From positions 124,001 to 188,000 of the IMG/VR virus record IMGVR_UViG_3300032322_001765: 64,000 nt of DNA, one strand, 5' to 3'. The notes under the pieces were generated by a model. It was not told the origin of the DNA and made no database searches. It was given only the letters and a program-made list of their open reading frames with translations. Shown here piece after piece: positions 24,263 through 56,232 of the stretch (the first letter of the stretch is position 1; every line of letters starts with the position of its first letter). The position numbers were made by a program, and so were the translations under genes. The DNA comes from a virus.

Positions 24263-25135
24263 ATGACTAAACAAAAATCTAAATCTAAACAAAAGCAATT
24301 TGATGTAAATGAACATCTAGATACTCTTAAACCAATATTAGGAACCACAGATACTAAAGTTGGTGAAATGTTGGTTTACAAGAATGATAACATAATCAGT
24401 CTGTCATTAGCATTATATGGCGAGTATTGTCATGCAGAAGTTGACATTATGTCACGCTATTTGGATAATACTAGTATATATGTTGATGTTGGCACAAACA
24501 TCGGTTATCATGCCCTCGCAGTGTTTACACAAACAGGATGTCATGTAAGAGGATTCGAACCTCACCCTACTCATTTTTCTGTTGCTGCATATAATTGCAG
24601 AGATAAACCAATAAGAATTTATAATACGGCAGTGGGAAATAATAATGGTACTATCACTTTACAAGATTTTGATCCTGAGAGTTTTGGTAATTATGGCGAG
24701 ATAAAATTTGATAATAGTGGTACAATAAATGCAAGCATTATTAGACTTGATGATTTAGAAGAATTAACACATTGTGACTTAATAAAAATAGATGTAGAAG
24801 GTTTAGAGCTAGATGTATTGCATGGAGCTACACGACTTTTAAACTCAAGTAGACCTGTTATATTTTATGAAGCAATAGATAGAGAAAATTACGAACCTTG
24901 CCTAAGCTATTTACGTGATATGCAATATAAACAATATTGGGTTACATGTAGAAACAAACCATTGGCACCTACTTACAAACAAACAGATGAAAATCCTTTT
25001 GAGGCATATGGTGTAAGCAATATTTTAGCAGTACCAGCTGAAAAAGAACAACCAATCGATTTGGCTCCAGTTGTTGAAGGGGAAAGTTTTTTAGAAATGA
25101 TTACAAGGTACCAAAATTACAAACTATTGTTTTGA
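24263..25135 (+). CDS. FkbM-family methyltransferase
   Basis: 290 residues. The core is YVDVGTNIGYHALAVF, GFEPHPTHFSVAAYNC, IRLDDL and CDLIKIDVEGLELDVLHGATRLL, the standard FkbM pattern (E-P-x-P after motif I and DVEG-E..V..G). Such enzymes methylate sugars or small molecules. A basic N-terminal tail is present (KQKSKSKQKQ). First gene of the cargo island; convergent with the following minus-strand gene, sharing 19 nt at the 3' ends. Confidence 0.85.
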   Translation: MTKQKSKSKQKQFDVNEHLDTLKPILGTTDTKVGEMLVYKNDNIISLSLALYGEYCHAEVDIMSRYLDNTSIYVDVGTNIGYHALAVFTQTGCHVRGFEPHPTHFSVAAYNCRDKPIRIYNTAVGNNNGTITLQDFDPESFGNYGEIKFDNSGTINASIIRLDDLEELTHCDLIKIDVEGLELDVLHGATRLLNSSRPVIFYEAIDRENYEPCLSYLRDMQYKQYWVTCRNKPLAPTYKQTDENPFEAYGVSNILAVPAEKEQPIDLAPVVEGESFLEMITRYQNYKLLF

Positions 25136-25740
25136 TCAGTTATATAGCTAAATTCAATCACAAAAACTATTCTAGGCTCATCACTTTTATGCTCTGATAC
25201 TGTATGCCACGCTTTAGTTTCGTGAAATAATAAATCACCCTCTTTAATATTTTGCCATATTAAATTTTCTGATTTTATTTCATGATTTCTAGCATGAGCC
25301 CACCCATCTTTTACGAATCCAAAGTCTGCACTATTATGCGGGGCTAACGGATAAAAAACTGCCATGGCATGGCTATCAGGATCGTGATCATGCACGTTTC
25401 CTGAACAGCCCTTCCAAATTTTATTTGTCCAAGCTCTAAAATATTTTATACCGGTTGCATTAGGATGTCCAAAATAATCACTAACACTTAATGCCTGTTT
25501 TTCAAACCACTTCTTAAATGGTTCTATTCCTTCAACATTTTTAAATAAGAAATAATTCTCTAATCTAAATGTACTAATACCTACACCGTTTTGATCTTCT
25601 AAACAAGGACATAATTTAGGATCAGAAAATAGCTTATCTAAACCTTCAGTAATAGTTGGTCCTTTATAAATTGCTTCATCATCGCAATGTGTTCTTGCTA
25701 CTTTATAATCAAATACGTTATATCTTTGCATTATTTCCAC
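25117..25740 (-). CDS. 2OG-Fe(II) oxygenase-like (double-stranded beta-helix) protein
   Basis: 207 residues. The HDHD motif at 117-120, distal H179 in AWHTVSEH and R190 in EPRIVFVIEFS fit the HxH/D...H...R pattern of the 2OG-Fe(II) oxygenases that hydroxylate proteins or small molecules. It overlaps the upstream gene (25731-26297) by 10 nt, so both are probably one transcript. Substrate unknown. Confidence 0.7.
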   Translation of the reverse strand: MEIMQRYNVFDYKVARTHCDDEAIYKGPTITEGLDKLFSDPKLCPCLEDQNGVGISTFRLENYFLFKNVEGIEPFKKWFEKQALSVSDYFGHPNATGIKYFRAWTNKIWKGCSGNVHDHDPDSHAMAVFYPLAPHNSADFGFVKDGWAHARNHEIKSENLIWQNIKEGDLLFHETKAWHTVSEHKSDEPRIVFVIEFSYITDQNNSL

Positions 25741-26297
25741 CTTGGATATTTATTTAAAACTTCGTAAAACTTATCGGGAAACAATTCCCAAACTGTCTGT
25801 TCGTGGCCTCTGTAAAAAACTGTTTTAACCCTTCTCATCATACCTTCTTTTTCCATCAATGGCGCAAATATATTGTGAACCTTACGTTGCGTTCCAATTT
25901 CTGATTCATTGCTTGTAATGTATAATTTAGAATTTTTTGGGGCCCATTCAATGCATTTGGGAATTAAAAATTGTGCTGTTGGATTTTGATTATCTGTAAT
26001 TACTTTTTTTGTGCGTAAAGCAGATCCGTAAGAACCATCTATTTTGTCTGTGAATACGCATGTCCTAGCAGCTATCCTATAGGAATTAGGGCCCATTACA
26101 TCATCAAAACTATGAGCAGCTACACTACCTATTGCATCATTTTTATAATACAATATCCAAATTTGTTTTTCTCTTTCATTGCTAAAGCAATCAACTAATT
26201 TTTCTTTGCTTATATTGTTGATAAATCCCCTACGTGAAGCTTCAGCGTAGAATTCAGATAAGTCTAAATTTTTATCCCATGCAATTAAATTAAACAT
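25731..26297 (-). CDS. Hypothetical protein, possibly GNAT-fold
   Basis: 188 residues. IWILYYKNDAIGSVAAHSFDD and TVFYRGHEQTVWELFP give an alternating strand/helix pattern compatible with a GNAT acyltransferase, but no clear Q/RxxGxG/A acetyl-CoA loop is seen, so this is weak. Preceded by a late-promoter-like GTTAAATA 5 nt upstream of the ATG. Divergent from the GSCFA gene. Confidence 0.55.
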   Translation of the reverse strand: MFNLIAWDKNLDLSEFYAEASRRGFINNISKEKLVDCFSNEREKQIWILYYKNDAIGSVAAHSFDDVMGPNSYRIAARTCVFTDKIDGSYGSALRTKKVITDNQNPTAQFLIPKCIEWAPKNSKLYITSNESEIGTQRKVHNIFAPLMEKEGMMRRVKTVFYRGHEQTVWELFPDKFYEVLNKYPRWK

Positions 26298-26302
26298 TTA
26301 AA

Positions 26303-26310: not shown

Positions 26311-26324
26311 ATAAAAAAGTAGCA

Positions 26325-26337: not shown

Positions 26338-27240
26338 ATGCAAACGATCAATTCTGAACTCATTAATTCTAATCCTAATTATCAAAAATATTTTCCATTT
26401 CTGACTTCTGAAACTTATGTTCCCAAAATTGAACCAAAATTTCATTTAAATTGGGGAAAGGATTTTAACGTATTTTGTATTGGTAGTTGCTTTGCTAGAG
26501 AGATTGAACTAGAACTACAACATAAAAATTGTAATGTACAAACGTTAGTACCACTGGCCTCTTTTGAAAATAATGGATTAATGTCGTTGATGAATGAATA
26601 CAATGCAGGTTCTATAGCCCAACGAATTAAATGGGCGTTTGAATCGAATGATATTGGCGACAAAAGCATTTATTTAAAAAATGAAAAATATGTAGACCTA
26701 CTTTTAAATAGTGAAAAGTCACATGATATAGAATGGATTATTGAAAGAAGAAAAAGAATTAATGAAGTATATAAAACCCTTCCTGACGCAAATCTCGTAA
26801 TTATTACTTTAGGATTAACTGAAGTATGGTATGATAAAGAAACTAATTTTTATTTAAATAGAATACCACCTTTTAATGTTGATCCATCGAGGTACGAATT
26901 AAGAATTTTAGATGTAAAAAATTGTTTTGAGTTATTAAACACAGCACTTAAGAAAATTACAGATATTAATATTCCAATAGTCTTGACCATAAGCCCGGTA
27001 CCCTTAAAGGTTACATTTAGTGGTAAAGATCCTATAATAGCGAATGAAGAAAGTAAAAGCACCTTACGTTTAGTTGCATCAATGTTATCTGATTCTAATC
27101 CTTTAATTGATTATTTTCCTTCATTTGAGACAGTCAAAATAGGAGGATTAGAAAACTACTATGATGGCGGAATTCACGTTAAATTTGAATTGGTTGAAGA
27201 AATAGTAAATCATATGATTAACCTATATCAAGCCTCTTAA
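26338..27240 (+). CDS. GSCFA-domain protein (SGNH-like)
   Basis: 300 residues. The name-giving motif FCIGSCFAREIE occurs in the N-terminal part, followed by LVIITLGLTEVWYD and VLTISPVPLKVTF, the conserved blocks of the GSCFA family. That family is related to SGNH esterases and occurs in glycan-modification loci. The 3' end overlaps the convergent neighbour by 23 nt. Function inferred only at family level. Confidence 0.8.
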   Translation: MQTINSELINSNPNYQKYFPFLTSETYVPKIEPKFHLNWGKDFNVFCIGSCFAREIELELQHKNCNVQTLVPLASFENNGLMSLMNEYNAGSIAQRIKWAFESNDIGDKSIYLKNEKYVDLLLNSEKSHDIEWIIERRKRINEVYKTLPDANLVIITLGLTEVWYDKETNFYLNRIPPFNVDPSRYELRILDVKNCFELLNTALKKITDINIPIVLTISPVPLKVTFSGKDPIIANEESKSTLRLVASMLSDSNPLIDYFPSFETVKIGGLENYYDGGIHVKFELVEEIVNHMINLYQAS

Positions 27241-27901
27241 TAAAATCTTCAGGATAGTTGTTTCTAAAACTTTGCCAACAAAGTTTTTCTAGTAAAGAAA
27301 ATGGTTGAGGTTGATCCCAAACTATACCTAATTTTTCTGTGTTCTCTTTTAGTATATTTCGTCTTGTAGAATAAATGTGGCTTTCAACATCTTTAATACT
27401 AAACCATGGCTCAGATTCATGATAAGTAAAAAAATAGTTAATACTTTTTAGTTTACCATCCACTACAAAATAACTGCTGGGGTGCATACTATATTTGTAT
27501 AATCCTAAAGATTTATGAGCCCTAATAATGTTTAACATTTGATCTTGCCAATCAGGTAATACACTATCATAATTTTCTGTAACACAACCAGCTCGCTCCC
27601 AAAAATCAGGACCGTCTATTTCTAAATAAATCTTTTTATTGATTAAATCAATCTGTTTTATTTTAGGAACCAAATTAGGATATTCATTAGACATTAAATA
27701 GATGTATTGTAATTCTCTAGCCCATTTTTCTTCCATTTTTTCAGGGTCTACTACCTCATTTTGTCCCTTATGATATTCTGTGTCATTATAATACCACTGT
27801 ACAAACGTTTTTTTGTCCTCTGAAATAAGGCTTGTGTAAATTAAATTGTTTCTACATTGTCCAACATTAGGAACATTATTATAATAATAATTATAGTTCA
27901 T
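27218..27901 (-). CDS. Divergent kinase-fold-like protein (paralogue of the protein at 41851-42510)
   Basis: 227 residues. The layout ELQYIYLMS...NLVPKIKQIDLINKKIYLEIDG followed by HPSSYFVVDGKLKSINYFFTYH resembles a small kinase-like fold with a degenerate catalytic loop. The protein at 41851-42510 shows the same layout (YLKIFES...APEVLDIKDNKIFIKWYG, then YPHSHYYDTNGQMHCIDFY). Neither has a clear HxD or DFG triad, so both may be pseudokinases or phosphotransferases. Follows the DSBH gene in the same transcript with 11 nt overlap. Confidence 0.5.
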   Translation of the reverse strand: MNYNYYYNNVPNVGQCRNNLIYTSLISEDKKTFVQWYYNDTEYHKGQNEVVDPEKMEEKWARELQYIYLMSNEYPNLVPKIKQIDLINKKIYLEIDGPDFWERAGCVTENYDSVLPDWQDQMLNIIRAHKSLGLYKYSMHPSSYFVVDGKLKSINYFFTYHESEPWFSIKDVESHIYSTRRNILKENTEKLGIVWDQPQPFSLLEKLCWQSFRNNYPEDFIKRLDIG

Positions 27902-28397
27902 CTAAAAATTCTGTAACTTGTAGTACATATCTTGTTGTGTAGCCAATGTTTGCAGACCCATGATAAGCATCTTGTTTTGCATAAGCAAAAACATCTCCTG
28001 CTTTATAGTTCGTAATTAACTCATCGTTAATTATAAAAACATGCCCTGATTCGTAATCAGTCCATGGCATCCAGTATCTCACTACATTTTTTTCTACGTC
28101 AGGATCTTGATGCATATTCATATATTGTGCAGGCATCATTTTAACCATCCACCAATAATAATTATTGGTAGTTATCCAAGGAGGAACAATATCAAATGGA
28201 ACATTAGTGTGTTTAAAATACCAAAAATGCACCGCCGTCATATCATAACCAGATTCTGCTGCACGTTTATAAACGTTAGTATGATATTGATCTATTGGAA
28301 TCGAAGGTGGACGCGGTTGTCCTTGAGTGTTTTTAAAGAACTCTATCCACTCAGGTTTCACCCAATCAATGTAGTTGCCGATATATCGTAATCCCAT
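27891..28397 (-). CDS. 2OG-Fe(II) oxygenase-like (DSBH) protein
   Basis: 168 residues. Facial-triad pattern H96-x-D98 in MNMHQDPD, distal H146 in AYHGSANIG and R156 in TRYVLQVT. The body also has GHVFIINDELITNYKAGDVFAY, as in aspartyl/asparaginyl hydroxylase-like barrels. First gene of a two-gene minus-strand operon with its own late promoter 5 nt before the ATG. Confidence 0.7.
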   Translation of the reverse strand: MGLRYIGNYIDWVKPEWIEFFKNTQGQPRPPSIPIDQYHTNVYKRAAESGYDMTAVHFWYFKHTNVPFDIVPPWITTNNYYWWMVKMMPAQYMNMHQDPDVEKNVVRYWMPWTDYESGHVFIINDELITNYKAGDVFAYAKQDAYHGSANIGYTTRYVLQVTEFLDEL

Positions 28398-28437: not shown

Positions 28438-29238
28438 ATGATAAGAGGAATTAATAATAAACCATATTTTGATATGGAAGCATATATCGATATGGATACA
28501 TTTGATACACTACAGCCAGAAATTTATCGTGGTTTTGCAGAAGCAAGAGAATTCGCCAAAGAAGGCACATGGATGACGCCAGGCTTTACATTTGAAAATA
28601 TGAGTTATCAATTATCATGGAAGCCTATATATCAATCAATACAAGATTTTTTAGCATTACCCGATGATGATCCAATTAAACAAGGTGGTATTGATCTATA
28701 TCGTGACTTTGATAACTTTGAAATAAGAAATAAATTTACTAGGTATGTGAAGATGGCTATGGGAGGATACGATCCATACATCTATTATTTTTTATGGGAA
28801 CAAGGCTCATGGGATGATAGAACTGCTCCTAGAAAACTAACACCAGAGGCAAAGTATTTTCCTAACGTAGTAAATTGGGTAGAAAAAATGACAGGATCAA
28901 TATTTACTGATATAGGTCGTGTTATATTTTTTCACTGTGAAGCAGATGGAATCCCTTTTGAACACAGAGACCTAGATGCAAAAAATGGCATCAATGTTGT
29001 TAAACCTCATCGTAATGAATTTATTCACATTCGTCCTAACACAAAAAAAGCTTTTTATATTTGGGACCCTGAAAAGAAAAATAAAATTTACATTAATACT
29101 AGAGCTGCTTGGTGGAATGATACAGATTGGCACGGCGGAGAACGTATTATGGAACAAAGTTATGCTCTAAGAATTGATGGCACATTTACAGATGAATTTC
29201 GTAAAAAATTAGGTATAAGTAATTTAGAATATTATTAA
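28438..29238 (+). CDS. 2OG-Fe(II) oxygenase-like (aspartyl/asparaginyl hydroxylase-type) protein
   Basis: 266 residues. H176-x-D178 in PFEHRDLD, H232 in DTDWHGGER and R245 in YALRIDG supply the metal and 2OG ligands of a DSBH oxygenase. The intervening strands (FIHIRPNTKKAFYIWDP, YINTRAAWWND) are typical barrel strands. The N-terminal ~150 residues are extra and not recognised. A single-gene transcript with its own late-type promoter; its 3' end touches the convergent radical SAM gene. Confidence 0.75.
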   Translation: MIRGINNKPYFDMEAYIDMDTFDTLQPEIYRGFAEAREFAKEGTWMTPGFTFENMSYQLSWKPIYQSIQDFLALPDDDPIKQGGIDLYRDFDNFEIRNKFTRYVKMAMGGYDPYIYYFLWEQGSWDDRTAPRKLTPEAKYFPNVVNWVEKMTGSIFTDIGRVIFFHCEADGIPFEHRDLDAKNGINVVKPHRNEFIHIRPNTKKAFYIWDPEKKNKIYINTRAAWWNDTDWHGGERIMEQSYALRIDGTFTDEFRKKLGISNLEYY

Positions 29239-30359
29239 AATTTGTCAATAAGATCCGGAACCATATCAAACAAATCTAATTTTCTTTCTTCGGCTAGTCT
29301 TAAAGAATTTATTTGAAAAGCCTTCCATTTTTCATCTGACGATTCTTTTTTATAAAGATATTTTATACTATCATCAAACGGATTACTATTTTTAGCCCAA
29401 ATACCAGTAACAGAATCTCTCCAAATTTTTAATTTTTTCTCAAGACCCTTTTTATACTCATTTGGAATAATTGATATTTCTTGCCAATTTGGATTATTTA
29501 AAAAATCAAAATCAAATACTATATTTGGAAATTTATGCTTCATTTCAACAACAAAGTCTCCTAAGGTCCATATATTATAGCAATTTATAACAGTATGGCA
29601 CATCAAAATTATATTGGGAAAGTTCTCCCATCTTTCGTAGTATTTTCGAATATTGTTTTCTACTGTTTTATTATCTGTAGGCCATCTATACCACTCATTT
29701 ACTGATCCTAAACCATCAACGCTTAAAAAATAATGAACAGCTTTGCATTTTTCTAATAATGTTAATAATTTGTCATTTGGAAAAATAGTACAATTTGTTG
29801 TTAATGTAAAGGTTAAATTTTCTAATTTTGTTTTTTCTAATAAAGATATACACTTATCTTGTTCTAATAATGGTTCTCCTCCTACAATTTTTAACACACT
29901 CAATTTTTGTAAATCTAATTGTGCGTAATTAAAATTTGTTGATACTTTTTGAGGTTGTATCAATATTCTTTTGTGTTTAAAATCTTCAGCACCCCATTTA
30001 GATGAAAGTTGTGAATCACAATGCACACATGCAAGATTGCATGTATTACTGAATCCGATATCTAAAAATTCTAATTGGACATCTTTTGGTTCTTTAAACC
30101 ATTCAAGAAACATTTTTCTATTACTAGTAGATCCTAATTTTTCTGAGTTATAGCATTTTTGACAGCCCTCAATCGGCCGTCCCTCTAACATATTTTTTCT
30201 AATATTTTCCCAACTCTCACTATTTAAAAAATCTATTTTGACGGTTGATTCTTTTAAAAATTTTTCATTTGGAGAAAAACTACAACATGGTCGTACAGAA
30301 TCATCTGGAAAAACTGCTGCTGCCAACCACGGCGCTGTACAAATAGTAGAGTTAGTCAT
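29235..30359 (-). CDS. Radical SAM protein, twitch-domain type (I)
   Basis: 374 residues. Radical SAM core motif CNLACVHC (C107, C111, C114), then VGGEPLL and LSVDGLG. The N-terminus carries a twitch-like cluster domain (C7, CC at 25-26, CQKC at 66-69) before the core. That arrangement defines the twitch-domain radical SAM proteins, whose substrates are mostly unknown. Last gene of a six-gene minus-strand operon starting at 35302; overlaps the SDR gene by ATGA. Confidence 0.9.
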   Translation of the reverse strand: MTNSTICTAPWLAAAVFPDDSVRPCCSFSPNEKFLKESTVKIDFLNSESWENIRKNMLEGRPIEGCQKCYNSEKLGSTSNRKMFLEWFKEPKDVQLEFLDIGFSNTCNLACVHCDSQLSSKWGAEDFKHKRILIQPQKVSTNFNYAQLDLQKLSVLKIVGGEPLLEQDKCISLLEKTKLENLTFTLTTNCTIFPNDKLLTLLEKCKAVHYFLSVDGLGSVNEWYRWPTDNKTVENNIRKYYERWENFPNIILMCHTVINCYNIWTLGDFVVEMKHKFPNIVFDFDFLNNPNWQEISIIPNEYKKGLEKKLKIWRDSVTGIWAKNSNPFDDSIKYLYKKESSDEKWKAFQINSLRLAEERKLDLFDMVPDLIDKF

Positions 30360-30913
30360 GTAGTTTGATAAGATTTTTCAGCAAAGTTTTTTAACTCTAG
30401 GGTTTCTTTTAAAGTAAATTCAATCGAAAATATTTTTGGTATTTTTAACCACAAATCAATAACATCATTTATTTCACTAAAAGTGGTAATATATTTTGAA
30501 TCTACTTTAATTGGCAAGGTTGCATTTTCGCAAAAGGATAATTTTAGGTATAATATATTGCATACGTTTTTATCTGAATTCTTAGATAATTTTTTACACT
30601 GGTTTTCTAATTGTAACTTATTTTCATATTCAATATCTAATCGGGAATAATCAGCACTTACTGATCCTAATACTATCATATTACCTACCTGTGTATAAAG
30701 ACTATTTAACAAATTAAGCTGTCCATTTTTACTACAAGCACAGTTTACAAATATGTCACACTGATTAGCTTGGTCTATTATTTTATCGAAATCATTATTG
30801 ATATCATATCCATTTGATCTTGACATTCCTTTGACTTCAAATCCCTTAGAGATAAAATGATTGTATATTGATTTTCCTATTCCATTTGTATGCCCTGTAA
30901 CAATGCATTTCAT
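30356..30913 (-). CDS. Short-chain dehydrogenase/reductase-like protein
   Basis: 185 residues. The Rossmann motif is TGHTNGIGKSIY (TGxxxGIG), then DIFVNCACSKNG in the NNAG position and VLGSVSADYS with the catalytic Ser position. The active-site Tyr-Lys is not canonical (YENK rather than YxxxK), and the protein is shorter than typical SDRs (about 240), so activity is uncertain. Sits between the aminotransferase and a radical SAM gene in the same operon. Confidence 0.75.
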   Translation of the reverse strand: MKCIVTGHTNGIGKSIYNHFISKGFEVKGMSRSNGYDINNDFDKIIDQANQCDIFVNCACSKNGQLNLLNSLYTQVGNMIVLGSVSADYSRLDIEYENKLQLENQCKKLSKNSDKNVCNILYLKLSFCENATLPIKVDSKYITTFSEINDVIDLWLKIPKIFSIEFTLKETLELKNFAEKSYQTT

Positions 30914-30914: not shown

Positions 30915-32102
30915 TTAAATATCCTTTAAGGAATTAAATACACGGTCTGATAATGTCTGAAAATATTCATCATCAGCAATAGTTGGAGCAACTAAACTTA
31001 TGTTTTTTGCTTCTAACGCCCATCCACCTAATCCGGTTATACCATTTTCTAAAAATTTATTAACATCAATTTTTTTAATAGTATTCGCATAAAAAATTAA
31101 ACCTTCACAATAAAATTTTTCTATCCAACCTTTTTTGACTAGAGAATTACCAAAATCTTTTAAGTTTGACTCTATTTCTATAATTTTATTTGTATCAAAT
31201 AAATCTAATACTCCTAACGCTGCCCCAACACCTGCCATATTTGGTTGCCAAGTATGGCTGTAATAATGACTATTTTTTATAACTTCGGCAATCTTTTGAT
31301 TTGTACATGCGCAACTAAGAGGACTAAATCCTCCTGTAAAGGCTTTACCTAATACTGTAATGTCAGGCTGTATATTAAATTTTTTGAAACTAAAGTATTC
31401 TCCTAATTTTCCTACCCCGCCCATTACATCGTCTAGTATTAAATTTATTTGATATTGATTACATATTTGTTTTAGAGTTATATGAAAATTCTGACTCCAT
31501 GGCATTATTCCATTTAACCATGGAATAGATTCATATATAATCGCACCAATATTAGGATTTAAAATAATCTGATCTACTACTTGCTTTAATAAATTACTTT
31601 CTTGTTCTTCTCTGCTTATTTCATTTTGCCAATTAGGTGCATCAAGAACAATAAATTTATCCATATATTCTTCTTTTCTCATTGCACGTTCAATGTAGGT
31701 AGTTCCATGCCAACCAGGGGAAAAACATATCACTTTATTTTTGTTTACACCTAAATTTCTCCAATAAGTATCATTCATAGCAATAGCACATTCAACTCCA
31801 TCGCTTCCGCTTACTGCCCAAGCAAGCGCAGAATAATCACCTTCAGTACATATCTTTTCAATTATTTCATTATTTTCTTTGCAATATTCATTTGGTTTAC
31901 AGTGAACGTAGGCAATTTTGTCTTGTAATTCTCTCATACGTTGCTTGATGTGAGTGTTATCAAATCCAAAAATAAATGCTGTGTTGCCCATGTGAGCATC
32001 TAGTAGTTTACCAATGCTGGTGTGAACATAATATTTTTCAGTTTTGTAAACTTCTATTTGTTGTTTTTCTGTAAGAGGAATGGTTAGTTCTTGAAAATTC
32101 AT
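30915..32102 (-). CDS. Class III PLP-dependent aminotransferase (or aminomutase-like)
   Basis: 395 residues. Class III features: SGSDGVECAI near residue 98, GWHGTT (PLP-stacking region), ILDDVMGG with the pyridine-binding Asp near 225, and the Schiff-base lysine K253 in VLGKAFTGGFSP. This fold includes ornithine/GABA-type transaminases and glutamate-1-semialdehyde aminomutase. Position among radical SAM enzymes suggests installing an amino group on a small metabolite. Overlaps the radical SAM gene upstream by ATGA. Confidence 0.88.
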   Translation of the reverse strand: MNFQELTIPLTEKQQIEVYKTEKYYVHTSIGKLLDAHMGNTAFIFGFDNTHIKQRMRELQDKIAYVHCKPNEYCKENNEIIEKICTEGDYSALAWAVSGSDGVECAIAMNDTYWRNLGVNKNKVICFSPGWHGTTYIERAMRKEEYMDKFIVLDAPNWQNEISREEQESNLLKQVVDQIILNPNIGAIIYESIPWLNGIMPWSQNFHITLKQICNQYQINLILDDVMGGVGKLGEYFSFKKFNIQPDITVLGKAFTGGFSPLSCACTNQKIAEVIKNSHYYSHTWQPNMAGVGAALGVLDLFDTNKIIEIESNLKDFGNSLVKKGWIEKFYCEGLIFYANTIKKIDVNKFLENGITGLGGWALEAKNISLVAPTIADDEYFQTLSDRVFNSLKDI

Positions 32103-48467: not shown

Positions 48468-49311
48468 TTTCTTCTAAATAACGAATTAAAGGTGAAACAC
48501 CGACTGGCATGCCATTTTTTAATGCTAAATAAATGCTTTTTGTTTCAGTTAAATTAAAGTCCTTGCAAATTGTCTTATATCTATGTTCATGAGTATTCCA
48601 AAGGTAATCAGGTACTAGCTCATCTAAAAAATATGAACCAATCATTACTAATGCCTTATTATTCATATGGAAATCGTTCATTATTGTAATACTATCGCTA
48701 TCTTCATTTGACCATCGTAAACCTATTCTGTTCCAACCTAACCCTAATCCTTTACTTAAACTAATACCCACCGATTTAATATTTGGGTGATTAAAATCAA
48801 ATTCTATGTCAGTACATGTTGTAACCCATGCTCCGTCGATATGTACATCAATTTTTTTCTCTGCACACTCACTGAGTATATCCTGCATATTATTATGTAT
48901 AGATCCTATTTGTGGAAATGGCATAGCGATAATTAAAGGCACACCATGTATTAAATTTTTTGGGGTAACAAGGTATGATAAGTTTAATCTACTGTGGTAT
49001 CTGTAGTCATCAACTAGTGTTTGTACCCGATGGTGCATATAAATGTTATCGATAAATTGAGTGCATCCGTTAATAATATCTATACGGTTAAATTTTTTCA
49101 ATCCATATAACGAATTACGTTTAGATTCTGATAACCAATTTACAAATCGAAACTTAAATCTATTATAAACCTCATTACTAATGTCTTTGTCCAAACATCC
49201 ATGCAACACTTGTTGTATTAGAGTGTCAATTTTTTTATCTGTAAGTGGTTGTGGTCTTTCTATTTCTAAATACTTACTATCATAATCGGGTGCAATTTTA
49301 ATTCTATCCAC
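48457..49311 (-). CDS. Fold-type I PLP-dependent enzyme
   Basis: 284 residues with a GTG start, chosen because AGTAAATA lies 4 nt upstream, as at other operon heads here. VHIDGAW (Asp159) and SLSKGLGLGWNRIGLRW (Lys187) match the aminotransferase pyridine-nitrogen Asp and Schiff-base Lys. It is shorter than most (about 350-400), so the N-terminal region is reduced. May use amino donors for a pathway that includes the QueC-like enzyme next to it. Confidence 0.7.
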   Translation of the reverse strand: MDRIKIAPDYDSKYLEIERPQPLTDKKIDTLIQQVLHGCLDKDISNEVYNRFKFRFVNWLSESKRNSLYGLKKFNRIDIINGCTQFIDNIYMHHRVQTLVDDYRYHSRLNLSYLVTPKNLIHGVPLIIAMPFPQIGSIHNNMQDILSECAEKKIDVHIDGAWVTTCTDIEFDFNHPNIKSVGISLSKGLGLGWNRIGLRWSNEDSDSITIMNDFHMNNKALVMIGSYFLDELVPDYLWNTHEHRYKTICKDFNLTETKSIYLALKNGMPVGVSPLIRYLEENGI

Positions 49312-49315
49312 TGAC

Positions 49316-49330: not shown

Positions 49331-49334
49331 TTTC

Positions 49335-50003
49335 ATGCTTTCAAAATTGACTCTTTCTGTAGACGTAGATAGTTTAGTAAAACAAGTTAGTGAACTTAAT
49401 TTTGGTAAAAGTTTATCCATTAATTATACCACAGGAAAATTACTTAATGGTCCTTATCTAACGAAACCCGAATTTCTAAATACTCCTTTAGGAAATATTT
49501 TACAATCTATTGAAAATGTAGGTGAAGCTAGATTATTAAAACTAGAAAGTGGAGAATCTTATACTGCACATTCTGACCCAGATGATAGAATACATGTTCC
49601 TATCATAACCAATCTATATTCTTATATTATGGATTTGGACAACAATAAAATGTATCATTTGCCTGCTGATGGATCAGTGTGGTATATGGACACAAGTGTT
49701 ACACATGTGGCAGCAAACTTTGGAGGTAGAACTAGAATACATTTAAACATTCGAGTGCTACTTCCTAAATTTAAATCCCCTGGCTACAAATTAACTGTTA
49801 CAGGAGGCGATTATGATTGGAAACAGGAAGCATATTTTACCTTAATGACTTTTTTTAATAAATCTATTAAAGAAAGAATTATTACAGGATTTGAAAAGGT
49901 AAACGAAAGAGAAGTTTTATTAAATTGTGATCCAATCGTGCTTAATCCTTACATAAAAAAATTAGAAGATAAAGGGTTTAGTATATCTTTAAGCGCCACA
50001 TAA
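49335..50003 (+). CDS. Aspartyl/asparaginyl beta-hydroxylase-like 2OG-Fe(II) oxygenase
   Basis: 222 residues. H79-x-D81 in AHSDPDDRIHVPI, H124 in DTSVTHVAANFG and R134 in RTRIHLNIRV. The HSDP, HVPI and THVAANFG blocks match the Asp_Arg_Hydrox family, which hydroxylates Asp/Asn/Arg in proteins or peptides. Directly followed, with no gap, by a radical SAM gene, so peptide modification is a reasonable hypothesis. Confidence 0.8.
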   Translation: MLSKLTLSVDVDSLVKQVSELNFGKSLSINYTTGKLLNGPYLTKPEFLNTPLGNILQSIENVGEARLLKLESGESYTAHSDPDDRIHVPIITNLYSYIMDLDNNKMYHLPADGSVWYMDTSVTHVAANFGGRTRIHLNIRVLLPKFKSPGYKLTVTGGDYDWKQEAYFTLMTFFNKSIKERIITGFEKVNEREVLLNCDPIVLNPYIKKLEDKGFSISLSAT

Positions 50004-51053
50004 ATGACTTTCTACAATTCTGATTTAAAAATTTTAGATATTGAGCCATCTTCTTTTTGTAATGCAAAATGTCCTCAATGCATGAGAGAATCACAAAATG
50101 GTTCCTATGATTTTTTTAATCAAGTGAATTTAACTGATACTTTTTTTGAGATTTTTTTTCCTAAACAAGTAGTAATAAATTTAGAAATAGTTTCATTTAG
50201 TGGAAATGTGGGGGAACCTACAATGAATAAACATTTGATTGATATTATCAGGTGGTTTAGAAAACAAAACCCTAAAATTTATGTAGAAGTATACACGAAC
50301 GGCAGCGTACAGAAACCAAAGTTTTGGAGCGAATTAGGAGAAGTTATTGGACATAATGGTAATGTGATATTTGCCATCGATGGACTAGAGGATACTAATC
50401 ATATATACCGTATTGGAGTTAAATGGAACCTGCTAATGCAAAATGCAAAAGCATATATAGAATCTGGAGCGAAGGCAACATGGCAGTTTATACCTTTTCT
50501 ACACAACGAGCATCAAGTTGAGTTAGCTAAACAATTAAGTGCAGAAATGGGATTCGATAAATTTAAAATTAAAATATCACATAGAGATTTATTAAATCAA
50601 CAGCAAAATGAAAAAACTAGAGTCTATCCACCAAAAAATCCTATGTATACACATAGCGGAAATAAACTAGATTTTACTAATCTTGATGTTACTGAAAACT
50701 ATTTAAATAGTCTAGATATTAAATGTTATGCCATAGAAAATAGTAACTTATATATTTCTGCTGAAGGTTTAGTGTTCCCTTGTTGTCACACGGCTAGCAT
50801 TATACTTTTAGATGATAATATGGTACCTGAACCGTATAGTTGGATTAGGAAAACAAAAAGTCAATTTAATCTTAATGAAATTAATTTACATAACAATACT
50901 CTAGAACAAATTTTAAAATCAGTTACCTTTAATGAAATTAAAGAGTCATGGAACAAAGACATTAGCGTAGGAAAAAATGCAATATGTGCAGCGATTTGCG
51001 GCAAATGTAAAAATAACAAAAGTCTTATAGAAAATCTATTGCACCATGAATAA
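50004..51053 (+). CDS. Radical SAM protein with SPASM-like C-terminus (II)
   Basis: 349 residues. Core CNAKCPQC (C19/C23/C26), SGNVGEPTMN, YTNGS and IDGLEDTNHIYRIG. The C-terminus has LVFPCCHTAS and CAAICGKCKNN, consistent with auxiliary-cluster Cys as in SPASM proteins. Its pair is the protein at 51968-53053 (CQARCPMC, YIDAYKTILPCCW, CARVCGEF). Abuts the hydroxylase gene and overlaps the next gene by 8 nt. Confidence 0.88.
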   Translation: MTFYNSDLKILDIEPSSFCNAKCPQCMRESQNGSYDFFNQVNLTDTFFEIFFPKQVVINLEIVSFSGNVGEPTMNKHLIDIIRWFRKQNPKIYVEVYTNGSVQKPKFWSELGEVIGHNGNVIFAIDGLEDTNHIYRIGVKWNLLMQNAKAYIESGAKATWQFIPFLHNEHQVELAKQLSAEMGFDKFKIKISHRDLLNQQQNEKTRVYPPKNPMYTHSGNKLDFTNLDVTENYLNSLDIKCYAIENSNLYISAEGLVFPCCHTASIILLDDNMVPEPYSWIRKTKSQFNLNEINLHNNTLEQILKSVTFNEIKESWNKDISVGKNAICAAICGKCKNNKSLIENLLHHE

Positions 51054-51984
51054 ACTAATAAAAATAGAAATAGCTAATCCTAATGCATTGCGTATTAATT
51101 TTGTAATGACACGTAGTTGCACCTACGAATGTAGATATTGTCCGGATGATCTACATTACGGTACACATAGAGATATAAACTTAAATGATTTAAAACTGTT
51201 TCTTAGTAGATTTACGGATAGAAATACGGCCGTTCAATTGACAGGTGGTGAATGCACTACTCATCCACAATTTGAGGAAGTTATAAAATTAATTAAAGAC
51301 TTTAATTATAATGTACTAGTGGATTCTAACAGTGTTAGGACATTGCGCTTCTACGATGAAGTAAAACATTTAGTAGATAATTGGTGCATAACATTACATC
51401 CTAGTCAACATAAATTAGATTTAGAAAAATTAAAATTATTATCACAACATTCTTTTCTAGTGATTTATGTTATGATGGATCCTAATTATTGGGAGATATC
51501 ATTAGACTGGTTTGATCAAATATCAAAATTAAAAGATTTAAAAGTAACACCAATCCGAGTTATGAACAATTGGGGAGGTGCAAATTTTCACGCTAATTAC
51601 AGTGACGAACAATTAGAGTATTTGTCAAAGGCAGAATCTAAATGGCTTTTTACTGTTGAACGAGAAACAGAATTAAGAAAAACTCACATGTGGTTAGCGG
51701 ATACAGAATCTATAGCAACAGACACTACTGGAAACAGGGTTACACTAGATCCATTTAAAATGATACGCACAGGCACAAACAATTTTTATGGTTGGCAGTG
51801 TAAAGCCGGTAATGAATCAATATGCATATTTGATGACGGCAAAGCCATATGGGCAAATTGTGGGATTAAAAAATTTAACCATTACTTAGAGTTGACTCCT
51901 GAAATAATGGCTGAACCACTGAAATGTAATTTTTTAGCTTGTTCATGTGCTACTGATATTCGAGCCTCTAAGTCAAAGAATTAG
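51046..51984 (+). CDS. Radical SAM protein with SPASM-like C-terminus (III)
   Basis: 312 residues. Core CTYECRYC (C25/C29/C32), LTGGECTTHPQF and, near the C-terminus, WQCKAGNESICIFDDGKAIWANCG and CNFLACSCATD. The C-terminal order C..C..C.C matches the protein at 44659. GGEC in place of GGEP is a small variation in the SAM-binding motif. Its 3' end overlaps the convergent radical SAM gene by 17 nt. Confidence 0.88.
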   Translation: MNKLIKIEIANPNALRINFVMTRSCTYECRYCPDDLHYGTHRDINLNDLKLFLSRFTDRNTAVQLTGGECTTHPQFEEVIKLIKDFNYNVLVDSNSVRTLRFYDEVKHLVDNWCITLHPSQHKLDLEKLKLLSQHSFLVIYVMMDPNYWEISLDWFDQISKLKDLKVTPIRVMNNWGGANFHANYSDEQLEYLSKAESKWLFTVERETELRKTHMWLADTESIATDTTGNRVTLDPFKMIRTGTNNFYGWQCKAGNESICIFDDGKAIWANCGIKKFNHYLELTPEIMAEPLKCNFLACSCATDIRASKSKN

Positions 51985-53053
51985 TTTCTATCCACTGATC
52001 ATTGGGTTGACTTATATCTACATTTTTAAATTCACCGCATACTCTGGCACAGGTAATTAATTTTTCTTCATTCCATTTTTTGTGCCAAATATTTTGCCAA
52101 ATTTCAGAATCAATCACATTTTTTATTCCGTTTAGTGCATTAAGTTTTTCTACACCACCAAAATCTTCAATTAGTTTAGTGTATTGATTTTTTATATCTT
52201 CGCTTACATTATGATTGATATATTCAGGATCATAGTATGTATAGGGTATGGAACTTACCCAACAACAAGGAAGTATGGTTTTGTATGCGTCAATGTAGAT
52301 TTCTTTAAGATTTAAAACATGGCAGTTAATTTTTGCCTCAGCTATAAGTTGTTTATAAGAATTAATTACCTCTTTTGGCATAAACTTAATAGTAGTTTCA
52401 GTTGGGGGTTCAATTGTATGTGTATAGTTTCCTTCTTTATCTACAACATCGTATTTTGGTTCTACTAAAAAGCGTGAACTATTTTTTACAACAAATTTTG
52501 AGAAACCTAAACTTTTGGCTACTACCCTACATTCTTCTGTTTGATGCTCATTGTGTTTAAATTTTATAAATGTCCATTCGGCGATTCCCCCTGCATCAAT
52601 AAAAGCTTTTGCATTTTTTATTACAGTATTGTAATTAGTGCCTATCCTATATAATGAATGCGTATCAACTAATCCGTCAAGTGCGAAATGAACACAGTGA
52701 TCTACAGGAAGTGCCTTAGCTAAATCTATCCACCATGACGGCTTTCTAGCTCCGCCATTGGTGTGTATGGCAATTCGTACATTTGGATTCACATGTTTGA
52801 TGTACACACACATTTCTATTAGGTCATCATGCAGCATAGGATCACCAAAATTGCCGCAAAAATATATACATCGGACTAAGTTTAAAATTTCAGGAGAGAT
52901 GATCTTTTTAAACTCAATTAGTGTCCACTGAGTTAATTTTAAATATGGATTAGGCAACCCACCGTGATGATTTCTGGCACACATGGGGCACCTTGCCTGA
53001 CAATTATTAGTTAGCTCTATGTGAATAGATTTTAATTCATTAAATTTAAACAT
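51968..53053 (-). CDS. Radical SAM protein with SPASM-like C-terminus (IV)
   Basis: 361 residues. Core CQARCPMC (C18/C22/C25), FCGNFGDPMLHDDL, HTNGG and FALDGLVDTHSLYRIG. C-terminal ILPCCWVSS and CARVCGEF. Same architecture as the 50004-51053 protein, with alignable blocks. Last gene of the four-gene minus-strand operon starting at 56232. Overlaps the methyltransferase-like gene by 8 nt. Confidence 0.88.
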   Translation of the reverse strand: MFKFNELKSIHIELTNNCQARCPMCARNHHGGLPNPYLKLTQWTLIEFKKIISPEILNLVRCIYFCGNFGDPMLHDDLIEMCVYIKHVNPNVRIAIHTNGGARKPSWWIDLAKALPVDHCVHFALDGLVDTHSLYRIGTNYNTVIKNAKAFIDAGGIAEWTFIKFKHNEHQTEECRVVAKSLGFSKFVVKNSSRFLVEPKYDVVDKEGNYTHTIEPPTETTIKFMPKEVINSYKQLIAEAKINCHVLNLKEIYIDAYKTILPCCWVSSIPYTYYDPEYINHNVSEDIKNQYTKLIEDFGGVEKLNALNGIKNVIDSEIWQNIWHKKWNEEKLITCARVCGEFKNVDISQPNDQWIETNSLT

Positions 53054-53672
53054 TCGCCTTTCCTATAATCATGTATCTGTCATACAATGGCAATTCAAGT
53101 TTTTTTGCATTATAAACATGTAGTTTGCATTGATCTATAAAATGAGTTAAACTATTGGCAATTCGTATGTGTTCATCAATTTTGTAATTATTACTTTGTA
53201 CTACAATCAAACTATTGTGCGGTAAACAAGTTAACCATGTATCATATTGTTCTTGTGTAATGTGTTCACAACTAGTGTTGATAATAATATCTGCATTACT
53301 GTGAATTGCACACATATCCGATGTAATTGCTGTAAATCTTCCTTGCATTTCTTCTTTTTTATTCATAGTTCTAGCTATTTCTTCACAACTAGGATCTATA
53401 TCGATGGTACGAATATACTTAATAGAAATTTTACTTTGAAAAAGAAAACTAGCAAGAGTGCCGACCCACCCGCCGTGTATGTCAATACTGACAGGAAAAT
53501 TTAAACTTTTATCTTGTTCTGAACTGATAAAACTTTCTAAAGTTTCAATTAACCACTCTTTGCTTTGTATCTGTCCTCGCCAAAAGGCGTCTAGTGTACG
53601 TTTGGGGTCTTTGCTCTCACGAATGGCACACATCCAATAATGCAAGTGTTCAGTGTCTATATTCATGTTCAA
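53046..53672 (-). CDS. Class I SAM methyltransferase-like protein
   Basis: 208 residues. VSIDIHGGWVGTLASFLF matches motif I position (DIHGGW), then IRTIDIDPSCEEIARTMN (acidic end of strand 2) and ADIIINTSCEHITQEQYDTWL. A compact Rossmann methyltransferase is likely. The glycine-rich loop HGGW is unusual, so activity should be tested. Starts 1 nt before the upstream radical SAM gene ends, in the same operon. Confidence 0.65.
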   Translation of the reverse strand: MNMNIDTEHLHYWMCAIRESKDPKRTLDAFWRGQIQSKEWLIETLESFISSEQDKSLNFPVSIDIHGGWVGTLASFLFQSKISIKYIRTIDIDPSCEEIARTMNKKEEMQGRFTAITSDMCAIHSNADIIINTSCEHITQEQYDTWLTCLPHNSLIVVQSNNYKIDEHIRIANSLTHFIDQCKLHVYNAKKLELPLYDRYMIIGKANV

Positions 53673-54659
53673 CTATTCTGTTAACTTGCATTTTGGTATT
53701 TTGCTATCTGCCGAACTCACACAGCTAGGGGTTATACACTTTTTTGGCGAGCCAAATAATTTAAAACCATCAGTTAATGTTCCTAATGGTTGGTCGTGGC
53801 AACTATAACTTCTTTTAATTTCATCTCCCCGTATTATAACACTTTGATACCCTGAATTGCAATACCAACCTTTAAAATTATTAAAACCAAAAGAATTAAA
53901 TCTTTCTGCTTGGTCAAACAAGTACTCATTGTTGTCTTGGTCATACAAGCTTATTTGATATATTTCTTGCTCCTTTGCCTTTTGGGGGAACCCATTTTGC
54001 ATTATTGCAATCATTTCGTTTGTGTATCCATCTACAATTGCACTGGCGGTGTCGTTACTCTGTGGCTTTAGTGTGACATTGATTCCTTTATCATGAAATC
54101 TATTACACCTATCATACAACTCATAAAATTGATCTGGTACCATAACTTGATTAATGGTTACGTGAACATTTTCTCCCATTAAGAATAAACATTTTTCTGC
54201 AAATTCATTTTCATTCGCAAACTCACTATGATAACTTGCAGTAATTGATTTGCGTTGAAATAGTTCAGTAGACATGCACCAATTTCCCCACCATTTTTTG
54301 CTTGGACTTAAATTAGTAGTCATGTGTATACTTTGGTATGGGGTGATACCATCTTCAAGGTATTTTAATAAAGATAATAAATGTTTATAAGCAGTTGGTT
54401 CTCCGCCACTAAAGGACCAATGAAATTTATTAAATCTATTTTGCCTTGCTTGAGTTTTTATTGAATCTATTGTTTGAATGTATTTTTGAAAATCCGAATA
54501 GTCAGGCGTTTGGCTATTAGCATAAGGCCAACAATAGCTGCACTTATAATTACAGAACCTACCAAGAATCCAACTAATATTAAAGACATCATCTTTTATT
54601 AAAGTTTGTTGACCAAATTTTACTATTTTCTCAAATGGAATTTTTGTAAAATCGATCAT
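53673..54659 (-). CDS. Radical SAM protein (V of SPASM-like group)
   Basis: 328 residues from the ATG at 54659, which begins MIDFTKIPFEKIVKFG; an in-frame ATG at 54686 would add nine residues and overlap the upstream gene further. Core CNYKCSYC (C36/C40/C43), FSGGEPTAYKHL, TTNLS. C-terminus YCNSGYQSVIIRGDEIKRSYSC and KCITPSCVSS carries SPASM-type cysteines. Overlaps the upstream glycosyltransferase-like gene by 29 nt. Confidence 0.85.
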   Translation of the reverse strand: MIDFTKIPFEKIVKFGQQTLIKDDVFNISWILGRFCNYKCSYCWPYANSQTPDYSDFQKYIQTIDSIKTQARQNRFNKFHWSFSGGEPTAYKHLLSLLKYLEDGITPYQSIHMTTNLSPSKKWWGNWCMSTELFQRKSITASYHSEFANENEFAEKCLFLMGENVHVTINQVMVPDQFYELYDRCNRFHDKGINVTLKPQSNDTASAIVDGYTNEMIAIMQNGFPQKAKEQEIYQISLYDQDNNEYLFDQAERFNSFGFNNFKGWYCNSGYQSVIIRGDEIKRSYSCHDQPLGTLTDGFKLFGSPKKCITPSCVSSADSKIPKCKLTE

Positions 54660-56232
54660 ACTGTTCTTTGAGCCAGTCGTAGTCATTTATCCTTTTTAAT
54701 ACTTCTGTATCATTCTTGTTAGCCATCGCAAATTCTTTGCCTGCAATAGCTCCGTCAATTGCAAATTCGCCGTACTTCTTATCTTTGCCTACTGTACACC
54801 AAACGTTTAATCTGTCGTTAGTTTCAATTGAGTTTTGTCTATCAATTATTTGACTTGCTAACTTTACGCATTCTCTAAATGCACTTCGCCATGTATTGAA
54901 TGGATCCGTATTAAAATTAGTATAATTACTTAGTTTAATTACAGGTTCGTATAAATTACTTATACTTGTAGTCATATCAGGTTTATTAGTTTGCATATGT
55001 AACGTGTAGAATCTGGGTAATAGCTTTACACCACCGTACCCATATATTAACCCATTAATTGGATTAACGCTGCGCCAAACTCTAACTTTGGCTTGTTCAT
55101 AAAAAGGTACACTAAAATCAAAAGAAAAATCATCAACTAATGATGCATCGGCATCTACTACCCAAAAATAATCTGTTTTTGCAATCTTAGCAGCAGCAAT
55201 GTGTGCTTGATGTATCCCTGCTATGCCGTCAATTCTTTTTGCTTTTGGATATTTTTTAAGTACTAGTTCAAAATTTTTTTCAGCGTTTGGTTCACCGTAG
55301 CTTATGAATATTACGTCAAATTCACCTGGGTATTTGTATTTTATAAATGTTTCAGGACTTCTTCTGCTTACAGGAATTTCTTCTTTGTATTCTTTGCTAG
55401 CATTTGGTTGAAATACATCTACAATTCTTCCATCATTTGTTATAGAACTTAACGATCTACCTAATCGATTACATTCAAACAATATATCATCTTTATATAA
55501 TTCATACTGAGCTTCAAATAGGTTATCTAAATGTTCAAAATCTTTGATATCCCCTATATTAAAATTTTGTTTTGACAATGCGATATATGCTGCCTGCCTG
55601 GCGCCCAATATAGCCCAAACTCCATTTTCAACGTCTGTGCCTAAATGCATCCATCTCCAAAGTCTTTCATAATTTCTCCAGTTGATTTCTGAAATTTCTT
55701 TTACGAATATATCATTTTCCATACATAGTTTGATGCCTTCCCTAAACCCACTTCTCCAAGCTTGCTTTGGACTTGAATTTATGTTTACATCACTTAAACT
55801 ACGATTTAATTGTAGATAATTTTTAAAATCAAAATCAACACTATTAGGATTGGAGCTGTTTTCATGGGTACGCATAGTTTTCAGTTTTTCTACTGGCCAA
55901 ACTTTGATACCACCGTTACCATACGTATTTCCATTAATGTTGTTTTTACCACTAAAGCTTATTACACTGTCGGATACGTTTACGGTATCGACTAGATTCA
56001 GTTCAATTTGCAATAAATTATCGTGTACGTAGTTATCACCATCAACAATAATAACGTGACTATGATTTTCAACAAGATTTGCAACAGCTTTGTGTGCAGT
56101 GTCGCTTCCCTTTATATTGTCAACACGCAGTGCATTTGGACAAATTTCTAGTAAGCGTAAGTAATTGGCTTCTTTGTTTTCCTCTTGATAACTTAGAAAA
56201 ACGACTGGATAATTTTGAATTTTGAATAGCAT
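54631..56232 (-). CDS. Tandem GT-A glycosyltransferase-like protein (two repeated domains)
   Basis: 533 residues. Two copies of about 260 residues: the first has VIIVDGDNYVHDN and GNGGIKVWP, the second FWVVDADASLVDD and GYGGVKLLP. Each half also ends in xxWRSxFRExxKLxxxx and an Arg/Tyr-rich helix. DGDN and DADA look like the acidic metal motif of GT-A enzymes, with G.GG.K. marking a donor-loop equivalent. An internal duplication is therefore clear; activity of either half is unproven. Head of the four-gene operon from 56232. Confidence 0.65.
   Translation of the reverse strand: MLFKIQNYPVVFLSYQEENKEANYLRLLEICPNALRVDNIKGSDTAHKAVANLVENHSHVIIVDGDNYVHDNLLQIELNLVDTVNVSDSVISFSGKNNINGNTYGNGGIKVWPVEKLKTMRTHENSSNPNSVDFDFKNYLQLNRSLSDVNINSSPKQAWRSGFREGIKLCMENDIFVKEISEINWRNYERLWRWMHLGTDVENGVWAILGARQAAYIALSKQNFNIGDIKDFEHLDNLFEAQYELYKDDILFECNRLGRSLSSITNDGRIVDVFQPNASKEYKEEIPVSRRSPETFIKYKYPGEFDVIFISYGEPNAEKNFELVLKKYPKAKRIDGIAGIHQAHIAAAKIAKTDYFWVVDADASLVDDFSFDFSVPFYEQAKVRVWRSVNPINGLIYGYGGVKLLPRFYTLHMQTNKPDMTTSISNLYEPVIKLSNYTNFNTDPFNTWRSAFRECVKLASQIIDRQNSIETNDRLNVWCTVGKDKKYGEFAIDGAIAGKEFAMANKNDTEVLKRINDYDWLKEQYDRFYKNSI

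Follow-up and report, generated by a model that had tools for sequence, protein, structure and literature searches.

Thirteen radical SAM enzymes in an island of an aquatic T4-like jumbo phage: a conserved core that may tailor sugars for the tail fibres

Why should a phage carry thirteen genes for radical S-adenosylmethionine (rSAM) enzymes in a single island? The question is raised by approximately 34 genes at positions 24263 to 56232 of a 64,000-base stretch of viral DNA (the window), which covers positions 124001 to 188000 of the 220,867-base IMG/VR record IMGVR_UViG_3300032322_001765. By its gp23, which is 66 to 68% identical to gp23 of the jumbo phages PA5oct and Vibrio phage 2.275.O, the source virus is a T4-like myovirus and a large aquatic jumbo phage; the gp23-type capsid family PF07068 is also present in both long relatives, G002 and G003 (G and L labels mark related records and individual stretches, respectively). 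The island falls into a left half of variable cargo (24 to 42 kb) and a right half (42.5 to 56.2 kb), the core, with up to seven rSAM enzymes, a methyltransferase, a QueC-like ligase, a pyridoxal phosphate (PLP)-like enzyme, a 2-oxoglutarate (2OG) hydroxylase and a glycosyltransferase (Table 1). With middling confidence, we read the island as a late, cytosolic sugar-tailoring pathway whose product most likely goes onto the phage's own tail fibres.

The original prediction had counted 13 rSAM genes, and the count held. An rSAM call required a PF04055 score above the curated cut-off of 29.5 bits together with a CxxxCxxC motif; all 13 open reading frames (ORFs) are present and carry the motif, and all 13 predicted proteins pass, with whole-protein scores of 31.2 to 83.2 bits. 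The positions that had been listed for the CxxxCxxC cores point to the correct ORFs and are the low ends of these ORFs rather than the motif sites. Searched in six frames, the whole record yielded 17 rSAM genes, the 13 of the island and four of the N-twitch type at 14.5 to 19.8 kb of the record, outside the window. Since a second viral contig of 127 kb, from another record, holds the same 13 genes and is identical across the 21.5 kb compared, our data support a genuine linkage and not an assembly accident of one record, with the caveat that this contig may come from the same viral population.

The partner enzymes named in the original prediction could be assigned with differing certainty. Pfam confirmed methyltransferases at 34673 (class I) and 24263 (FkbM), as well as two of the six proposed double-stranded beta-helix (DSBH) oxygenases (25117 by PF13759 and 49335 by PF05118), one of two PLP enzymes (30915, a class III aminotransferase) and the GSCFA protein at 26338. 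The other four oxygenases (27891, 28438, 37319 and 39344), the second PLP enzyme (48457), the SGNH protein (43890) and the QueC-like ligase (47733) have no Pfam match and were assigned by motif and phage homologues, while the proposed short-chain dehydrogenase/reductase (SDR) at 30356 scored below the PF00106 cut-off.

The rSAM proteins belong to several families. The N-twitch proteins at 29235, 42542 and 46481, together with L001:18401 (331.7 bits) from the second cluster, all exceed the cut-off of 170 for NF033640 (N_Twi_rSAM). Those at 32099, 37869 and 39855 are of the B12 type, the last being a distant relative of TokK/KedN5, and those at 44659, 50004, 51046, 51968 and 53673 are short or SPASM-type proteins. 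No scanned rSAM protein scored above an equivalog cut-off, and several candidate identities were rejected. For tetraether synthase (Tes; NF045702), 36222 scored 78.3 bits against a cut-off of 450 and has nothing beyond the zinc ribbon PF23545 and the rSAM core in common with it. The KedN5-family B12 C-methyltransferase (NF033712) was rejected for 39855 and the PhpK P-methyltransferase (TIGR04479) for 32099 (scores in Table 1). Matches to prokaryotic viperin (NF038283; 27 to 47 bits against 180) involved the rSAM core alone. The QueE cut-off was not reached, R8 and rSAM 1 having only weak QueE-like PHROG matches. Membership of the QueC/deazaguanine pathway was not upheld for 47733 either, whose only match was to TilS_N (E=1e-4), with the PP-loop and four cysteines present. 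No solved-structure relative was found with the QueC-like profile or for PLP2 (48457), and the accessory genes had no PHROG family match except for one weak aminotransferase. Used as a single-protein query, 32099 matched only the near-identical contig among viral contigs and gave two distant matches among phage isolates.

We examined if the core is shared with other phages. When viral contigs were scanned with a degenerate pattern for the R10/R12 pair, 403 candidates proved to encode a relative, and 80 loci were kept. Families were counted by best-profile assignment over these loci and extra stretches of some of the same contigs, so that the counts refer to stretches and not to independent genomes, many loci being short and some lying on shared contigs: R12 82, MT_53046 77, R13 70, R7 70, R8 57, the Asp hydroxylase 44, R9 43 and the QueC-like ligase 42. 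R12 is present by construction, because the loci were picked for an R10/R12 relative; the other genes are not. MT_53046 adjoins R12 in 62 loci and R13 in 40. The thirteen genes between 42542 and 54686 all keep their order in L018, at 56 to 83% identity, and the core is syntenic in the divergent uncultured phage contigs L015, L018, L020-L023 and L084.

Catalytic residues are invariant in the homologue alignments of the core proteins, and the core is under strong purifying selection as estimated from median ratios of nonsynonymous to synonymous substitution (dN/dS) of 0.04 to 0.18 (small samples of pairs, with two pairs only for PLP2). A block of rSAM enzymes, methyltransferase, ligase and hydroxylase conserved in this way should therefore make a defined, multi-step product that selection cares about. 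The possibility, raised at the outset, that these genes are common host families without co-occurrence in phages, or encode dead enzymes, does not agree with a core found in dozens of phage contigs with invariant catalytic residues, or with an R13 profile that matched in one of 399 cellular genomes sampled from a single phylum. The density of rSAM genes had been called unusual for a phage, a description that holds only in part: of 26 related records, all picked for holding one rSAM gene, 24 have at least five and as many as 15, and Campylobacter phages with 11 to 12 were known in 2010.

Cultured phages, as judged by these searches, hold at most distant relatives of the core. Neither MT_53046 nor the QueC-like protein had a tblastn match among 50,697 phage records, and R12 had only four there, all distant, in Campylobacter phages and the Pelagibacter phage Mosig. 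Profiles found in Mosig a remote MT_53046-like protein (69 bits), a PLP2-like aminotransferase, and R10/R12-like and R8-like rSAM proteins. Among 399 cellular genomes of one phylum, the R13 match was weak and the NF033640 cut-off was exceeded in two genomes; a search at E<=0.001 had returned 339, all but these two below the curated cut-off, and only the two were used. Further order-level and class-level searches gave no additional genome. In the lake-bin genomes of L096 and L097, which have cellular Tes-like matches, the R13 profile found nothing, and no rSAM island surrounds those matches. Both cellular N-twitch loci lie, by eye, among polysaccharide genes, one with ABC export, RmlC/RmlD-like and WbsX-like genes and the other with a GT2 glycosyltransferase and an epimerase for nucleoside diphosphate (NDP) sugars. 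At L133:8579-11143, within a cellular O-antigen-type locus, an N-twitch rSAM domain is apparently fused to a Wzt-like ABC ATPase.

The genomic context of the core points to sugars and tail fibres. In G002, G003, G006 and G007 the order is tail fibres, a GT8 pair, a GT-A glycosyltransferase, N-twitch rSAM genes and then the core; these four are the full set of relatives in which the sequence retrieved on that side includes tail fibres. The source phage has, on one strand in L002-L001, tail fibres, a GT8 pair, a GT-A gene, the four N-twitch rSAM genes, SGNH and a carbamoyltransferase. Adjacency to tail fibres and a VrlC-like gene was seen for this second cluster and the four relatives, and not for the island in the window. 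The GT8 and VrlC labels were given by eye and synteny, and the GT8 pair has no Pfam match. For the core glycosyltransferase at 54631 the model shows two domains resembling GT-A (pLDDT 77.5, pTM 0.48). Glycosyltransferases make up most of its top Foldseek matches; the TM-scores are low, a consequence of the model having two domains.

From these data we infer the substrate, order of reactions, product, acceptor and benefit as follows. The island would be one half of a late-expressed sugar-tailoring locus of the phage, with the core (42542-56232) encoding one multi-step cytosolic pathway; the chemistry is placed in the cytosol because no island protein looks membrane-spanning, hydropathy having indicated no transmembrane protein among them. 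The N-twitch and SPASM-type rSAM enzymes, the methyltransferase, the QueC-like ATP-dependent ligase, the aminotransferase-like enzyme and the 2OG hydroxylase would alter the structure of a sugar or of a sugar-amino acid conjugate; transfer of the product would then fall to the adjoining GT-A enzyme and, in relatives, to GT8 as well. The left half would supply swappable tailoring cargo. In the source phage this comprises B12 methylases, Tes-like rSAM enzymes and 2OG oxygenases; its content varies among relatives, and the closest, G014, carries a tryptophan halogenase at this place (L098:3876-5453). Phage IscU and IscA beside the island may provide Fe-S clusters. The product would decorate the phage's own tail fibres, or else a host envelope glycan, and so change host recognition or superinfection. 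That the target is a glycan of one kind or the other we consider quite likely, which narrows the earlier suggestion of secondary-metabolite or peptide/glycan modification for an island that is not homogeneous.

The timing of expression bears on the choice between these two acceptors. We looked for ATAAATA, the central part of the T4 late promoter TATAAATA, in the 40 bases that precede each start codon. It is present at 6 of 9 island operon starts versus 2 of 25 internal genes, and in related phages at 26 of 156 core operon starts versus 1 of 533 internal genes, nearly always 4 to 7 bases before the start codon; permuted motifs reached at most 12 of the 156. Over the whole window the exact TATAAATA is not commoner than chance, and the signal lies in its placement. 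The island sites are at 26325-26332, 28403-28410 and 49323-49330 and upstream of 28438, 41851 and 54631, 4 to 8 bases before the start codon. Because ATAAATA sits at operon starts, these data suggest that the island is expressed late, perhaps from leaderless mRNAs. Several structural genes of the source phage have ATAAATA 18 to 35 bases upstream, with a ribosome-binding site in between.

If the acceptor were instead the lipopolysaccharide (LPS) or capsule of the host, remodelling during infection could block adsorption by other phages (superinfection exclusion). This has been proposed for pelagimyophages (PMC7029224) and jumbo cyanophages (PMC7824862), and the cellular N-twitch genes do sit in O-antigen-type clusters. 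The source phage has HldE- and HldD-like ADP-heptose genes (best matches, below equivalog cut-offs) and genes of the GT25 and GT9 families; relatives have KdsA, sugar nucleotidyltransferase and dehydroquinate (DHQ)-synthase-type cyclase genes, and of these the HldE/HldD-like and KdsA genes suggest sugars of the LPS inner core. However, the island has no flippase, exporter or other membrane protein, and the promoter-like motifs, together with codirection with tail-fibre genes in relatives, suggest an expression that would be late for exclusion. We regard remodelling of the host envelope as possible but rather unlikely, and favour tail fibres on three grounds: the link to tail-fibre genes, the promoter-like motifs and the absence of exporters.

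Several observations weigh against decoration of tail fibres by a tailored sugar. The main island of the source phage lies apart from the tail-fibre array, and some relatives, such as L060, have KdsA and other genes beside R13 instead of tail fibres. No complete NDP-sugar pathway was found inside the island, and the core itself holds only one glycosyltransferase gene. The promoter motif is a consensus match and not a mapped start, and the cellular polysaccharide context comes from two genomes. SPASM rSAM and Asp-hydroxylase-family enzymes, moreover, are just as able to use peptides or free amino acids as substrates.

This last point leads to an alternative, the direct modification of protein residues, for example in tail fibres, by the rSAM, 2OG and methyltransferase enzymes, in the manner of maturases of ribosomally synthesized and post-translationally modified peptides (RiPPs) without a dedicated precursor. 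SPASM and twitch domains, the Asp-beta-hydroxylase family member and the tail-fibre genes adjoining the core in four relatives would all fit. The ORFs from 24263 to 56232 overlap or lie at most approximately 40 bases apart, leaving no room for a stand-alone precursor, in agreement with the original prediction that there is none inside, though a precursor elsewhere is possible; no RiPP maturase equivalog was reached, and the same loci hold glycosyltransferases and sugar genes. We consider this improbable. A diffusible secondary metabolite (antibiotic, signal or cofactor) is more improbable still. The TokK/KedN5-like B12 methylase and aminotransferase, and the tryptophan halogenase and DHQ-synthase-type cyclase of relatives, would suit such a product, which PMC7824862 offers as one option for a cyanophage cluster. 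No nonribosomal peptide synthetase, polyketide synthase or transporter was seen, however, the halogenase and cyclase occupy cargo positions, and the conserved core has a glycosyltransferase and adjoins tail fibres in relatives.

Some phage thymidine hypermodification pathways use rSAM and PLP enzymes, and hypermodified DNA bases that evade restriction would also agree with the QueE-like PHROG matches of R8 and rSAM 1. Such a role is argued against because the sole thymidylate-synthase-family gene is full-length and ThyA-like and there is no C5 DNA methylase (PF00145). In addition, the unassigned 2OG proteins have no match to any Pfam family, and no cut-off for QueE, viperin or another nucleotide-acting equivalog was reached. 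Base hypermodification therefore seems very improbable indeed, the least credible of the readings considered.

Sugar and cargo islands of aquatic T4-like phages are known, their chemistry having been guessed gene by gene. The host recognition cluster (HRC) of pelagimyophages, T4-like aquatic phages, is a variable island next to VrlC and tail fibres that carries LPS-type genes, rfaE and rSAM cassettes (PMC7029224). Such a setting is shared by the second rSAM cluster of the source phage and by four relatives, with VrlC assigned by eye, and the cultured example, Pelagibacter phage Mosig EXVC030M, has R10/R12-like and R8-like rSAM genes, a PLP2-like aminotransferase, a carbamoyltransferase and a remote MT_53046 homologue in this region. 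In contrast to the HRC, the source phage has 13+4 rSAM genes and a core away from tail fibres, and the ordered core of R13-MT-R12, R7, R8, R9, QueC-like ligase and hydroxylase is not described in PMC7029224. Campylobacter phages CP220 and CPt10 (Eucampyvirinae) have 11 and 12 rSAM genes, described in 2010 (PMC2853527), with an interchangeable five-rSAM module that includes amidinotransferase and NDP-sugar-transferase-fold proteins. Their rSAM proteins, however, are only distant SPASM relatives (approximately 24% identity), and the region examined has no match to the QueC-like protein, MT_53046 or the N-twitch core. The L109:5721-6773 protein is 29% identical to a possible glycine amidinotransferase of the CP220 rSAM cluster.

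The capsular-polysaccharide clusters of jumbo cyanophages (PMC7824862) share a sugar kinase, nucleotidyltransferase, cupin, many glycosyltransferases, carbamoyltransferase, 2OG oxygenases, halogenase and methyltransferases; the word 'radical' appears nowhere in that paper, and the rSAM core is additional here. Vibrio phages K566 and K567 have approximately five clustered N-twitch-related rSAM proteins in a 255-kb phage, but no R12, R13, QueC-like protein or MT_53046 was found in the stretch examined. Cellular N-twitch loci likewise place NF033640 beside sugar genes, but are rare in the sampled phylum (2 of 399) and lack the phage core. We found no description of the ordered core in the open-licence literature, subscription papers being mostly outside the search. 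Tentatively, the core may be a single, essentially phage-specific pathway leading to a novel type of extensively modified sugar, or to a hybrid of sugar and amino acid, on tail fibres, spread over hundreds of uncultured aquatic phages and with no complete cellular counterpart. Oxygen-sensitive radical chemistry would enter virion or envelope decoration. The core would also give biochemistry several uncharacterised rSAM families whose partners are fixed, and the question why these phages carry so many rSAM genes would become directly testable, including in the cultured Mosig with its reduced version.

Table 1. Genes of the rSAM island and its upstream flank, with the second sugar locus (window coordinates; "late motif", late-promoter-like motif upstream)
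Feature	Position	Strand	Evidence
Second sugar locus: GT25-type and other putative glycosyltransferases, methyltransferases, split HldE-like kinase and adenylyltransferase, cupin	7965..15209	+	PF01755 51.6 bits; TIGR02198/TIGR02199 best matches, below cut-offs
IscU-type Fe-S scaffold (NifU_N)	23364..23744	+	PF01592 175.6 bits; just upstream of island
IscA-type Fe-S carrier	23877..24242	+	PF01521 68.3 bits
FkbM methyltransferase	24263..25135	+	PF05050 65.3 bits
2OG-Fe(II) oxygenase	25117..25740	-	PF13759 29.2 bits, cut-off 27
Putative N-acyltransferase-like, cargo	25731..26297	-	No Pfam match; family in 19 related loci
GSCFA protein	26338..27240	+	PF08885 138.7 bits; late motif
Kinase-like family (by eye)	27218..27901	-	No Pfam match; 17 related loci
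DSBH (2OG) oxygenase	27891..28397	-	HxD...H...R motif; 22 loci; late motif
DSBH (2OG) oxygenase-like	28438..29238	+	HxD...H...R motif; 20 loci; late motif
rSAM 1, N-twitch	29235..30359	-	PF04055 37.3 bits; NF033640 225.1 bits
Short SDR-like protein	30356..30913	-	PF00106 17.6 bits, below cut-off; 10 loci
Class III aminotransferase (PLP)	30915..32102	-	PF00202 131.3 bits
rSAM 2, B12-binding, PhpK/ladderane-like	32099..33568	-	PF04055 83.2, PF02310 35.5; TIGR04479 109.5, below cut-off 600
rSAM 3, zinc-ribbon Tes-like	33565..34659	-	PF04055 52.9, PF23545 43.1; nearest solved relative 7tol
Class I methyltransferase	34673..35302	-	PF13649 60.9 bits
NAD(P)-binding, saccharopine-dehydrogenase-like by eye	35335..36225	-	No significant Pfam match
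rSAM 4, zinc-ribbon Tes-like, paralogue of rSAM 3 (54% identical)	36222..37319	-	PF04055 53.5, PF23545 36.2
DSBH (2OG) oxygenase	37319..37876	-	HxD...H motif; family seen in related loci
rSAM 5, B12-type	37869..39347	-	PF04055 53.3; PF02310 below cut-off
DSBH (2OG) oxygenase	39344..39862	-	HxD...H motif; 19 loci
rSAM 6, B12 methyltransferase, KedN5/TokK-like	39855..41858	-	NF033712 141.4, below cut-off 700; TokK 7kdx E=8.8e-36
Kinase-like family (by eye)	41851..42510	-	17 loci; late motif
Core rSAM 7 (R7), N-twitch	42542..43936	+	NF033640 382.2 bits; 82% identical in L018
SGNH-like protein	43890..44666	-	No Pfam match; 78% identical in L018
Core rSAM 8 (R8)	44659..45567	-	PF04055 54.8; C25/C29/C32 and GGEP invariant, 15 homologues
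Protein of no assigned family	45564..46484	-	81% identical in L018
Core rSAM 9 (R9), N-twitch	46481..47743	-	NF033640 339.8 bits; 83% identical in L018
Core QueC-like PP-loop ligase	47733..48467	-	SGGADS and four Cys invariant, 15 homologues; 42 loci
Core PLP-dependent aminotransferase-like (PLP2)	48457..49311	-	Motif only; no Pfam/PDB match; 20 loci
Core Asp/Asn-beta-hydroxylase family	49335..50003	+	PF05118 27.4 bits; beta-hydroxylase 7v4f E=4.9e-21; TATAAATA upstream
Core rSAM 10 (R10), SPASM	50004..51053	+	PF04055 31.2, PF13186 23.2
rSAM 11 (R11)	51046..51984	+	PF04055 31.7
Core rSAM 12 (R12)	51968..53053	-	PF04055 38.6; C18/C22/C25 invariant, 15 homologues
Core class I methyltransferase fold (MT_53046), no Pfam family	53046..53672	-	AlphaFold pLDDT 87.2; Foldseek probability 1.00 to SAM methyltransferases; 77 loci
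Core rSAM 13 (R13)	53673..54686	-	PF04055 40.0; motif and auxiliary Cys invariant
Core tandem GT-A-like glycosyltransferase	54631..56232	-	DxD conserved; beside R13 in 25 loci; late motif

Other genes around these loci complete the picture. Like L060, L111 and L114 depart from the tail-fibre arrangement on the R13 side and have sugar-nucleotide and cyclitol-type genes there; in L114:3575-8470, upstream of R13, these are a sugar nucleotidyltransferase, a cupin, a DHQ-synthase-type cyclase and an SDR, a set that resembles cyclitol chemistry. In the second sugar locus of the window the HldE-like functions are divided between two overlapping genes (13732-14830), one for the kinase and one for the adenylyltransferase, and the kinase half may be degraded, because it is short and matches its family in three pieces. 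An array of 26 tRNA genes lies directly downstream of the island (57015-62660). Very long proteins with RCC1-like repeats, and many repetitive proteins resembling tail fibres, extend over tens of kilobases of the phage (window 1-7904; L004-L007), and L008:3019-5541 encodes PstS-like phosphate-binding and phosphate-porin-like proteins (by eye), which are likely to serve phosphate acquisition.

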